Virus record (IMG/VR): IMGVR_UViG_3300040801_002725
Span: 1 to 20,184 of that record
Source: a virus
Length of the DNA: 20,184 bases
Strand: one strand, 5' to 3'
Made by a program: the position numbers and the translations under genes. Below are positions 9,819-18,976 of this stretch, piece after piece (positions within the stretch are counted from its first letter, which is position 1; every line of letters starts with the position of its first letter). Below the pieces are notes generated by a model that had not been told where the DNA came from, searched no databases, and saw only the letters and a list, made by a program, of their open reading frames with translations.

Positions 9819-9947
9819 ATGTTGAATCATGATATAGTTACTCTAGGTGTTGACGTTGGAACAGTGATCACACTGAACATAGCAAAAATGGGCCCAGGTT
9901 GGTTCTCAATTTTACAATTCTTTACACAGATAAGCTACCTGGCATAA
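9819..9947 (+). CDS. Small hydrophobic protein, 42 aa
   Basis: ATG at 9819 is preceded by AGGAG (9807-9811) with a 7-nt spacer, and a late-type promoter lies about 60 bases upstream. The product starts MLNHDIVTLGVDVG, continues with hydrophobic segments (VITLNIAKMGPGWFSILQFF) and ends SYLA. Hydrophobicity is spread through most of the chain, so a membrane-associated peptide is possible; there is no clear signal peptide or long charged domain. The stop codon TAA touches the A-run that is the U-tract of the minus-strand terminator, so this gene and the candidate ncRNA converge. Being close to the spanin genes it could belong to lysis control, but that is only a guess. No family recognised. Confidence 0.5.
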   Translation: MLNHDIVTLGVDVGTVITLNIAKMGPGWFSILQFFTQISYLA

Positions 9948-9978
9948 AAAATGGGGAGACTTTGAAAGTCTCCCCATT
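9946..9978 (-). terminator. Strong rho-independent terminator on minus strand
   Basis: TGGGGAGACTTT (9952-9963) pairs with AAAGTCTCCCCA (9965-9976), realistically with a loop of about 5-7 nt. Read on minus, the hairpin is followed by UUUUUU (9951-9946). On plus there is no U-run after it, so the terminator faces transcripts arriving from around 10200 on the minus strand, where no ordinary gene lies. Confidence 0.85.
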
Positions 9979-10216
9979 AAATTACGTCCTGTAACCATTT
10001 TATCATCATCGACCGGTATCTACCAGTCCTTTTATGACTTCACAAAGATAAATATCCTTTTAACCTTTCATCGCAACAACAAATAAGAGTTTCTTTGCTC
10101 CTTGCAAACGTATCCATAAACGCTCTGGATTCCTTTGAGCTTTCTTCACAGTCCAATTGCTATGGGTTCCAATGATGTCGTCCTAAAACATCAAGAGAAC
10201 ATCTTTTTTGTTGTTA
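9946..10216 (-). ncRNA. Candidate structured late non-coding RNA, ~270 nt
   Basis: An exact late promoter (10230-10223) and a strong terminator (9978-9946), both on minus, bound about 270 nt without a credible gene. The 5' end pairs with an internal segment: bases 10218-10202 against 10072-10088 give 16 of 17 pairs with 2 G-U and 1 mismatch. Inside are TTTGC-AAGGA-GCAAA (10108-10094) and a 6-bp TGATGT/ACATCA stem. Downstream, GACTGGT-AGAT-ACCGGTC (10028-10011) makes 7 pairs including a G-U that would be a mismatch on plus, supporting the minus orientation. The first three AUGs near the 5' end meet stops within four codons. A loop showing AAGGA could touch anti-Shine-Dalgarno rRNA. Function is unknown; a decayed gene is the main alternative. 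Confidence 0.5.
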
Positions 10217-10218
10217 CA
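10072..10218. repeat. Imperfect inverted repeat spanning the ncRNA core
   Basis: Arms 10072-10091 (CGCAACAACAAATAAGAGTT) and 10198-10218 are reverse complements except for one extra base, one internal mismatch and two end transitions that become G-U pairs in the minus RNA. The spacer of 106 nt contains smaller stems. Confidence 0.65.
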
Positions 10219-10222
10219 TCTT

Positions 10223-10230
10223 TATTTATA
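10223..10230 (-). promoter_or_regulatory. Late promoter without a downstream ordinary gene
   Basis: The minus strand reads TATAAATA at 10230-10223, an exact late consensus. The first minus-strand gene downstream is the tube protein more than 500 bases away behind a strong terminator, so this promoter appears dedicated to the short structured transcript. Confidence 0.65.
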
Positions 10231-10256: not shown

Positions 10257-10284
10257 TTTACGTTTCCTCTAGTTTGTTTATAAT
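10257..10284 (+). promoter_or_regulatory. Candidate sigma-70 promoter for 90 aa gene
   Basis: TTTACG (10257-10262) and a perfect TATAAT (10279-10284) are separated by 16 nt, giving a start near 10291. It suggests early expression of the 90 aa gene by host polymerase. Confidence 0.5.
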
Positions 10285-10324: not shown

Positions 10325-10597
10325 ATGTCTTCATCTTCATATTATGGTACTGCCAGTCTTCAAGAAGTTGCTGAATTTATTGGTTGGTATCTAGAAAAAA
10401 ACGTTATTGAAACATACTCAGAACTTGATAAACTGGTTGAAGAGGAGTTTGGGTATAACGACTGCGATAGGTTTATCACCGATGGTTTAAACCGCCCACG
10501 CCATAAACAACGTATCTACGATGTATACAAACCCTTGCGTAAAGTATACGGTAGACGTATCAATCGTTTTAACGGTGGTTACATTTTAAATCCATAG
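10325..10597 (+). CDS. Unknown protein, 90 aa, probably early
   Basis: ATG 10325 follows an AAGGA ribosome site. The protein begins with a Ser/Tyr-rich head (MSSSSYYGTASLQEVAEFI), has an acidic helical centre (ETYSELDKLVEEEFGYNDCDRF) and a basic Tyr/Arg-rich C-terminal half (RPRHKQRIYDVYKPLRKVYGRRINRF). The charge split and lack of membrane segments suggest a small soluble, possibly nucleic-acid-binding protein. I do not recognise it. It is the first gene of the plus cluster that leads into the spanins, has a sigma-70-like promoter with an overlapping inverted repeat, and is followed 17 bases after its stop by a strong terminator. Confidence 0.75.
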   Translation: MSSSSYYGTASLQEVAEFIGWYLEKNVIETYSELDKLVEEEFGYNDCDRFITDGLNRPRHKQRIYDVYKPLRKVYGRRINRFNGGYILNP

Positions 10598-10614: not shown

Positions 10615-10659
10615 ACCTCCCAATAAGTATTATTATACATATTTACTGGGAGGTTTTTT
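10615..10659 (+). terminator. Terminator hairpin that contains the spanin ribosome site
   Basis: ACCTCCCAATAAGTAT (10615-10630) pairs with ATATTTACTGGGAGGT (10639-10654) at 15 of 16 positions (one A-C mismatch, one G-U) around an 8-nt loop, then TTTTTT (10654-10659). This is a textbook terminator for the 90 aa gene. Its 3' arm includes GGGAGG (10648-10653), which is the ribosome site of the gene starting at 10661, so transcripts reading through would have that site buried. Confidence 0.9.
10634..10641 (+). promoter_or_regulatory. Candidate late promoter inside terminator loop
   Basis: TATACATA (10634-10641) is 7 of 8 to the late consensus and lies in the loop and 3' arm of the terminator. 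A start about 6-8 nt downstream would omit the 5' arm and free the GGGAGG ribosome site of the spanin gene. Confidence 0.45.
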
Positions 10660-10660
10660 C

Positions 10661-11137
10661 ATGCCTGCTTTCTTATTACCGCTTTTGGGCCTTAAGGACA
10701 TATTTGTTAAACTATTGGGATTCTTTCTCGACAACTGGAAAGAGATCACAATATTCGTACTACTATCAATCGTTATATACCAAAATTTTTATCCAAAACC
10801 TCCAACAGTTTTGGGGTTAACTGTTATTCCGTTGACGACTATTCCGCACCTTGAAGAGCAGCTTCGTCAGGCCCAAGAACAGTTCGAGGTTTGTGCCGAG
10901 GGTAATAGGATACTCTCAGAAACCATAGACGCTAGGAACGAGGAGATACAACGTTGGAAGGATGAGACCGACGCGCTCCAGGAAGAGTTTGACAAGGTTG
11001 AAGAGAGATTGCGGAATAGAAGAACACAAACAAATCAAAGAGTTGAAAGGATAATAAGAGAGGATACGCGACCTAAAGATTCTGACGCCGCTATAGAGTT
11101 TTTAAGAGGTGCAAAAGAACGTTTAAAATGGGATTAA
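10661..11137 (+). CDS. Inner-membrane spanin (Rz-like)
   Basis: The 158-residue protein has a hydrophobic N-terminal region ending in one clear membrane helix (EITIFVLLSIVIYQNFY, about 28-44), then a long polar coiled coil (about 65-135; HLEEQLRQAQEQFEV, NEEIQRWKDETDALQEEF) and a basic C-terminus. This is the i-spanin plan: anchored in the inner membrane and spanning the periplasm to bind an outer-membrane lipoprotein. That lipoprotein is encoded just downstream. Spanin pairs fuse inner and outer membranes in the last step of lysis, which implies a Gram-negative host. Its ribosome site GGGAGG, 7 nt from the ATG, sits in the 3' arm of the preceding terminator hairpin. No endolysin or certain holin is seen in this window. 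Confidence 0.75.
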   Translation: MPAFLLPLLGLKDIFVKLLGFFLDNWKEITIFVLLSIVIYQNFYPKPPTVLGLTVIPLTTIPHLEEQLRQAQEQFEVCAEGNRILSETIDARNEEIQRWKDETDALQEEFDKVEERLRNRRTQTNQRVERIIREDTRPKDSDAAIEFLRGAKERLKWD

Positions 11138-11175
11138 ATTATGATAAAATAGTATCTTTAACACAGAGAAGTCAA

Positions 11176-11556
11176 ATGAAAAATGTTATAAATAGCTCTA
11201 TACTTCTTCCTATGGTTTTGATAGCTACAGGTTGTGGAACTACTACGACGTTAAACACTGAGGTGCAAGAGGTTCTCGTACCGGTGCTCTATTGTCCTAA
11301 TCCTACAATTCCTGATAGACCTGCGCTCGCTATAGAAGATATAAATAATAATACTAGTGCTGGTGAGATAGCTCAGAGATACGAGGCTACCATCGTGCAG
11401 CTTCAAGGCTATGCTGGGGAACTTGAAGAGTCATTAGAACAGTACAAGGATATAAACGAACGTTTTGGCGATATTGAGGAGCGTATAGATATTACGTTTC
11501 AGGATGAAAGGGATGAAGATACAGGAAATACTACAAGAAGTGTCGGAGACCGGTAA
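11176..11556 (+). CDS. Outer-membrane spanin lipoprotein (Rz1-like)
   Basis: Starting at ATG 11176, the product opens with a lipoprotein signal, MKNVINSSILLPMVLIATGC, with lipobox IATG|C and Cys20 as the acylation site. An upstream in-frame ATG at 11128 would add 16 polar residues before the signal and overlap the i-spanin stop; the shorter start is preferred because it makes a normal signal peptide. The mature part (about 107 residues) holds a Thr-rich linker, a Pro-containing segment (VLYCPNPTIPDRPAL) and a helical, acidic half (YEATIVQLQGYAGELEESLEQ). With the i-spanin upstream this is the o-spanin. It is longer than lambda Rz1, so the C-terminal helix may extend the periplasmic bridge. 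Confidence 0.75.
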   Translation: MKNVINSSILLPMVLIATGCGTTTTLNTEVQEVLVPVLYCPNPTIPDRPALAIEDINNNTSAGEIAQRYEATIVQLQGYAGELEESLEQYKDINERFGDIEERIDITFQDERDEDTGNTTRSVGDR

Positions 11557-18257: not shown

Positions 18258-18289
18258 TTAAAGGGAGATAATTATCTCCCTTTAATTTT
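18258..18289 (+). terminator. Perfect palindromic terminator after 123 aa gene
   Basis: Bases 18258-18285 form a 28-nt perfect palindrome with GGGAGAT/ATCTCCC arms and an AATT centre, followed by TTTT (18286-18289). It lies 20 bases after the stop and just before the next late promoter. The symmetry may also stop minus-strand transcripts. Confidence 0.8.
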
Positions 18290-18291
18290 GA

Positions 18292-18299
18292 TATAAATA
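18292..18299 (+). promoter_or_regulatory. Late promoter for prohead protease
   Basis: Exact TATAAATA (18292-18299), 41 bases before the ATG of gene 21 and 2 bases after the U-run of the upstream terminator. Confidence 0.8.
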
Positions 18300-18340
18300 A
18301 TTACATTATATATTAAAACAATTTGGAGTAAACAACTATT

Positions 18341-18976
18341 ATGAAAACGGAATTACTCGTTGAAGAGTTACAACCTAAAGAGGCTTCTATTATCGTTGAA
18401 GCTGATACGGGTAATAAGAACGTTTGGCTTAACGGTATTTTTATGCAGTGTGAGCAACAGAATCGCAACGGACGAATCTACTCTCTTAAAGAGATGGAAG
18501 GGTCCGTAAAGAGCGCCAATGAAATAATTAAAAAAACTCGAGGTTTATTAGGAGAGCTTGATCATCCGCAGACTCTTACTACAAATCTCGATCGGGTATC
18601 TCACGTTATTCGTGAATTAAATATTCGCGGTAACGACGTTTACGGTAAGGCTCTTCTTATCGATACGCCATGTGGTAATATAGCTAAAGAAATATCTAAA
18701 CATGTAAACTTTGGCGTGAGTTCTCGCGGAACAGGACAAGTTGCTGAAAGTGGGCAGGTGTCTGGTTATAATTTCGTGACCATTGATATCGTTGCCCAAC
18801 CATCCGCACATGATGCTTATCCTCGTACTGTGATGGAGAGCATCGAGATGTATCAGGGCGAGAAGGAGATCGTGTCTCTTGCCGAGGCCATTAAGCACGA
18901 TAAGGCAGCTCAAAAATATTTTCAAAAAGAGATACTTAAGTTCTTAAGCGAGGGTCTCTTTAAGAAGAAAAAATAA
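18341..18976 (+). CDS. gp21: Prohead core protease (gp21-like)
   Basis: A 211-residue serine protease, as long as T4 gp21 (212). Catalytic candidates are His75 in GELDHP and Ser127/Ser128 in FGVSSRG, with Asp149 in FVTIDIVAQPSAHDAYP as the third position. The herpes-assemblin-like protease cuts scaffold and head proteins after L/I-x-E sites during head maturation and cleaves itself. The C-terminal ~35 residues (KHDKAAQKYFQKEILKFLSEGLFKKKK) form a basic helix that may anchor it in the core. The ribosome site is GGAG. It is preceded by its own late promoter and followed by the scaffold gene, the usual 21-22 order. Confidence 0.95.
   Translation: MKTELLVEELQPKEASIIVEADTGNKNVWLNGIFMQCEQQNRNGRIYSLKEMEGSVKSANEIIKKTRGLLGELDHPQTLTTNLDRVSHVIRELNIRGNDVYGKALLIDTPCGNIAKEISKHVNFGVSSRGTGQVAESGQVSGYNFVTIDIVAQPSAHDAYPRTVMESIEMYQGEKEIVSLAEAIKHDKAAQKYFQKEILKFLSEGLFKKKK

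Follow-up and report, generated by a model that had tools for sequence, protein, structure and literature searches.

In bacteriophage T4, the ribosome site of gene e lies in a hairpin on the long RNA, and the late promoter CTATAAATAC is located within that hairpin (PMC3014915). For the T4 genes I-TevI, I-TevII, I-TevIII and segB, and for mobE of Aeh1, early or middle RNA forms a hairpin that hides the ribosome site, and the late promoter is positioned such that late RNA is unable to form it (PMC2988022). The late genes 49 and soc of T4 also have sequestered initiation regions (PMC3014915). The T4 late promoter is TATAAATA at −13 to −6; position −13 is often A in relatives, and single deviations are tolerated (PMC1524935; PMC2988020). 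In the gene e leader (ACCTTCTATAAATACTTAGGAGGTATTATG) and the I-TevII leader (CCTCGTATAAATATGAATACGAGGTGAAACGATG), the late promoter sits inside the hairpin, the ribosome site forms part of the 3' arm and no T tract is present. Folding of the gene 49 and soc leaders predicts sequestered initiation regions. The principle of a ribosome-site lock paired with a late promoter is known from e, I-TevI, I-TevII, 49 and soc, and its fusion with an intrinsic terminator, which we describe here, is a variant. Our search of the open-access literature retrieved the T4-type lock and no description of a terminator-fused one.

The locus lies in a 20,184-base virus record (the window), which belongs to a T4-like phage and contains genes for TerL, a gp4-type head closure protein, tail tube, UvsX, an SSB-like protein, a UvsW-like helicase, primase, baseplate hub and prohead protease. 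Among named phages, the large phages XacN1, CM1 and RAS14 are the closest, with 47-49% identity in TerL. A composite element of 49 nt on the plus strand separates a 90 aa ORF (10325-10597) from a spanin-like gene pair. A consensus scan places a presumed early, sigma-70-like promoter candidate of the 90 aa gene, TTTACG-16-TATAAT, at 10257-10284, where a match of 10/12 is not evidence of function. The hairpin (10615-10654) comprises a lower stem of 8 bp between ACCTCCCA (10615-10622), which is complementary to the ribosome site, and TGGGAGGT (10647-10654), followed by a 1x1 mismatch, an A/T-rich upper stem of 7 bp (10624-10630 paired with 10639-10645) and an 8-nt loop (10631-10638). The Shine-Dalgarno sequence GGAGGT (10649-10654) is contained in the lower-stem 3' arm. 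It runs into a T6 tract (10654-10659) placed both as the tail of an intrinsic terminator and as the spacer between the Shine-Dalgarno sequence and the start codon; a single C (10660) precedes the spanin ATG at 10661. The late-promoter-like word TATACATA (10634-10641), which matches TATAAATA at 7/8 positions, spans part of the loop and extends 3 nt into the inner 3' arm. The initial annotation had described a 15-bp hairpin whose 3' arm is the ribosome site, followed by a T-run, one further base and the ATG, and this observation is confirmed.

The first gene behind the element encodes a putative i-spanin of 158 aa (10661-11137). Its profile match is weak (phrog_89, E 6e-4), and the call is supported by a hydrophobic N-terminal segment, a coiled-coil-like body with several weak coiled-coil matches and an adjacent, overlapping lipoprotein-like ORF; the protein thus has features that fit both the N-terminal membrane segment and the coiled-coil periplasmic domain of an i-spanin. 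The overlapping ORF, a putative o-spanin lipoprotein (11128-11556, with a likelier start at 11176), features a lipobox-like sequence (...LIATGC) and matches phrog_456 only at E 0.006. We regard the spanin pair as putative, given weak profiles combined with anatomy. Neither the spanin nor the 90 aa protein has relatives in IMG/VR, INPHARED contains no relatives by DNA or by spanin protein, the TerL relatives (L003-L005) carry no spanin homologue, and no family was found for the 90 aa protein. Spanins act after holin and endolysin and do not time lysis; neither a holin nor an endolysin was identified in the window. The label 'lysis switch', given to the element in the initial annotation, therefore overreaches.

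The hairpin is above chance level: its predicted energy is −18.1 kcal/mol (z = −3.8), and none of 200 shuffles was equally stable. On readthrough RNA, opening the spanin ribosome site is predicted to cost 14.9 kcal/mol, the highest value among 22 starts in the window (0.7-8.7 for the others) and one reached in 0 of 1000 shuffles of the upstream sequence. The Shine-Dalgarno sequence is thus predicted by folding to be paired in a stable hairpin on long transcripts, as in locks of the gene e and I-Tev type, which supports the suggestion that readthrough RNA would be locked. The sequence also has the form of an intrinsic terminator, with the G+C-rich stem ACCTCCCA/TGGGAGGT directly abutting T6. 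This form weighs against the possibility that the element is, like the T4 gene e leader, a translational lock and nothing more, its loop carrying a late promoter, its T-run serving only as spacer and termination being negligible. Such a lock would share its geometry with T4 e and I-TevII, neither of which has a T tail, and the tail-tube gene of the window does have a T6 spacer without a hairpin. However, a G+C-rich lower stem running straight into six T is the classic terminator form, and nearly all copies of a comparable cyanophage element described below retain a T tract behind the stem; we consider a pure lock improbable. Because the tail-tube gene has T6 after its ribosome site without a hairpin, the T-run of the spanin leader may nonetheless be partly a spacer. 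It is very improbable that the hairpin is a processing or stability element (an RNase site or 3'-end protection) or a temperature- or protein-controlled riboregulator unrelated to the late promoter. Phage intergenic hairpins can have such roles in general, and nothing specific points to one here; a search of Rfam with the element returned no match, and a simpler model explains the geometry fully.

TATACATA is one mismatch from the late consensus of T4. As that consensus sits at −13 to −6, the predicted +1 falls on 10647, where the 3' arm begins (T4 spacing, PMC1524935), and the whole 5' arm would therefore be missing from late RNA. The initial annotation had claimed a near-consensus late promoter in the loop: the word is present with exact geometry, but its match is weak and not significant on its own. 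A site with at most one mismatch occurs anywhere in 30% of dinucleotide shuffles of the 27-nt interior, and at suitable spacing in 11.5%, so that in such an A/T-rich interior the word alone does not exceed chance. Most structural genes in the window do, however, carry the same loose motif. Of the seven identifiable structural genes that have an upstream region of their own, six carry TATAAATA with at most one mismatch 28-48 nt 5' of the start; genes with zero or one mismatch are those for tail tube, tail fibre-like, protease, hub, tape-measure-like and scaffold-like proteins, and the word upstream of terL is AATAGATA. Within the window, no such site was found upstream of uvsX, ssb, uvsW or the 90 aa gene, and some other presumed early genes carry one at chance level. 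Scored with a matrix from the other late genes, the spanin site being left out, the spanin site ranks 34th of 40,346 positions. XacN1 (L002 record) and RAS14 (L008 record) encode gp55 homologues; gene 55 is not in view within the 20 kb window fragment. Neither XacN1 nor RAS14 shows an enrichment of exact TATAAATA, which is rarer than or similar to a reversed control, and the late promoter consensus of these two phages probably differs from that of T4.

Two further arrangements in the window involve a perfect TATAAATA. At the prohead protease gene (18258-18341), a separate terminator, TTAAAGGGAGATAATTATCTCCCTTTAA-TTTT, is followed by a perfect TATAAATA at 18292, an un-fused form of the order terminator, then late promoter. 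On the minus strand (9945-10230), a perfect TATAAATA at 10230-10223 would start an RNA of about 270 nt near 10217, ending at a strong terminator (9978-9950). This strand has no ORF longer than 38 aa, and the RNA is predicted to fold far better than shuffles (z −5.3, or −3.3 without the terminator), making it a candidate late structured noncoding RNA. It gave no real match in Rfam and no convincing match among phages.

An alternative explanation is that the terminator overlaps the ribosome site of the next gene only to save space, and that the loop contains a late-promoter word by chance. The spanin would then be translated from readthrough transcripts or from those of an upstream promoter, and the hairpin would act as a constant damper. 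The frequency of the word at suitable spacing in shuffled interiors fits this explanation, as does the finding that overlaps of terminator and ribosome site are common in viral contigs, many of them without a late-promoter word, including cases before primase and HNH genes. It would, however, leave the spanin without a good late start: its ribosome site would stay behind the full opening cost of the readthrough RNA, and no other site with at most one mismatch exists in the 110 nt upstream, whereas most structural genes of the window have a close late motif of their own. In the cyanophage element, moreover, no part is better conserved than the TAAATA core at the equivalent position, which persists in L217 and L240 although these have lost the hairpin. 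We judge a chance word in a space-saving terminator to be unlikely, if less so than a pure lock.

Instead, we propose that 49 nt at an early/late boundary combine a terminator, a ribosome-site lock and a late promoter in one composite element, a three-part mechanism to which we assign a probability of roughly 60%. Transcripts begun at the presumed early promoter of the 90 aa gene would fold into the hairpin and end at T6. In any readthrough RNA, the same hairpin would hold the spanin GGAGGT, as the computed energies suggest, and little spanin would be made early. Late in infection, a gp55-type RNA polymerase would start from TATACATA at about 10647, 2 nt before the ribosome site. Because this late RNA lacks the 5' arm, it should neither terminate nor lock, and the spanin pair could be translated. 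That a late start frees the ribosome site, as was originally suggested, holds in relative terms: the 5' arm would be removed by the predicted +1, and the opening cost would drop to 6.7 kcal/mol from 14.9 kcal/mol in readthrough RNA, but the predicted late RNA keeps a weaker hairpin, so the site becomes easier to open rather than unstructured. The earlier interpretation is thus partly supported, standing in outline.

The strongest new support for a three-part element, though indirect, comes from T4-like cyanophages. When IMG/VR was scanned for CCTCC...GGAGGTTTTT..ATG, leaving the promoter word unspecified, CCTCCC(C)TCTAAATAGTTAGACGGGAGGTTTTTT(C)ATG turned up in many marine contigs. Wherever the surroundings were read, these composites share one place, after replication and metabolism genes (in S-CAM3, DNA primase/helicase, MazG and a tRNA) and before a variable gene of 340-540 aa, which itself precedes a conserved phrog_455 gene. 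Using the phrog_455 protein, we fetched 80 cyanophage loci, of which 69 had a readable leader. The composite is present in 67 of these 69 loci and in 43 of 45 distinct leaders, which come from related phages and are not independent tests. Pairing of the lower stem is maintained throughout, in places through changes on both sides (CG/TG/TA; AT/TA); covariation is limited since the ribosome site fixes the 3' arm. The TAAATA core is constant, and in most leaders about 5-8 nt separate it from the GGAGG-type site. The T tract is preserved in nearly all copies. Two leaders (L217, L240) have no terminator but retain AATAAATA. In Aeh1, the core sequence CTAAATA is the known late motif (PMC1524935), and for S-PM2 the published motif is NATAAATA (PMC2984593); judging by the motif, the downstream genes would be late. 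For RNA beginning at the predicted +1, the computed cost of opening the ribosome site in five cyanophage leaders is about 1-2 kcal/mol, down from 9.5-14.5. The combination of a lock with a terminator-like hairpin, which had been presented as a feature of this locus, is therefore not unique to this phage.

The window element was considered as a member of the cyanophage class and rejected, its core being TACATA rather than TAAATA and its flanking genes having no homology to those of the cyanophages. Its architecture and spacing (7 nt) match, and we treat the two as analogous.

Similar composites were found before a TerL gene (L023) and before a RuvC-like resolvase gene (L258 and six near-identical contigs); the T4 resolvase gene 49 also has a lock. 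In L018 and L130, a gene of 116-119 aa is kept after the composite and the hairpin interiors differ. Raw counts showed no excess: in IMG/VR, the composite-with-promoter pattern occurred at 17 loci versus 23 for a reversed-word control, and only some of the real-pattern matches have a gene starting right after. With a broader WATAAATA composite, hairpin and ORF were both present in 19 of 50 viral and 22 of 80 bacterial-genome matches. Across IMG/VR and bacterial genomes, A/T-rich terminator loops before ORFs often hold TATAAATA-like words, also where no gp55 is expected. As such counts do not prove a class, the argument rests on conservation at fixed loci.

Two other groups of terminators came to light in these scans. 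Five large-phage and other contigs (L009, L010, L012, L013, L014) have in common a terminator whose loop contains TATAAATA (CCTCCCAYCTATAAATAARTAGGTGGGAGGTTTT and variants) and behind which no gene starts directly, possibly a repeated terminator/promoter module. In L073, L068, L113 and L134, terminators overlap the ribosome site before HNH- or homing-endonuclease-like genes, without a clear late promoter; the family was confirmed for L073 and L068, and the arrangement echoes the hairpin control of T4 homing endonucleases.

We tentatively suggest, with somewhat less than even confidence, that the fused terminator, lock and internal late promoter, within 40-50 nt, represent an undescribed class of early/late insulators that recurs in T4-like phages and arose independently before different late genes (spanin, TerL, RuvC-like resolvase and a cyanophage late module). 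Independent origins could recur since the sequence demands of a GGAGG ribosome site, of a terminator arm and of a T-rich spacer are readily reconciled. Phages with late genes among early ones must block early expression twice, in transcription and in translation. If the suggestion is right, one short element imposes both blocks and contains the promoter that circumvents them, which would be a very economical solution; it would also explain in general why terminators occur 'inside' ribosome sites and could serve as a compact building block where gene expression is to be timed. Since its cyanophage copies are conserved, the element can be tested in cultured phage-host pairs.

Compared with known systems, the element is, in outline, a variant of the T4 gene e and I-Tev design in which the lock would double as a terminator. 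The likeness to gene e, noted from the start, is borne out on the T4 sequence itself: both concern a late, lysis-related gene, in the window a putative one, behind early transcription, with a late RNA, predicted in the window, that lacks the 5' strand. In contrast to the window element, the gene e leader has no T tract and is thus not a terminator, has a consensus promoter and precedes a gene for lysozyme rather than a spanin, and the two share no sequence homology. I-TevII (TCCTCGTATAAATATGAATACGAGGTG) is the nearest geometric match, closer than gene e; the I-Tev group differs in comprising homing endonuclease genes, and the I-TevII leader, the sole leader of the group that was read, has no terminator tail. 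In all T4 leaders read, including those of gene 49 and soc, the stem is not followed by a T tract, unlike in the window. The G+C-rich stem followed by six T resembles intrinsic (Rho-independent) terminators, from the usual form of which the element departs in its larger loop and upper stem (15 bp, 8-nt loop) and in a 3' arm that doubles as ribosome site. The element of the Kyanoviridae, for example before gene 165856 in Synechococcus phage S-CAM3, unites all three parts in the order CCTCC...TAAATA...GGAGG, T tract and ATG, and its late transcripts are predicted to begin one to three nt ahead of the ribosome site. It differs from the window element in its CTAAATA core, shorter stem and smaller loop, in the lower opening cost of its predicted late RNA (about 1-2 kcal/mol) and in the families of the genes that follow (phrog_1462, 13937, 27473 and 8438).
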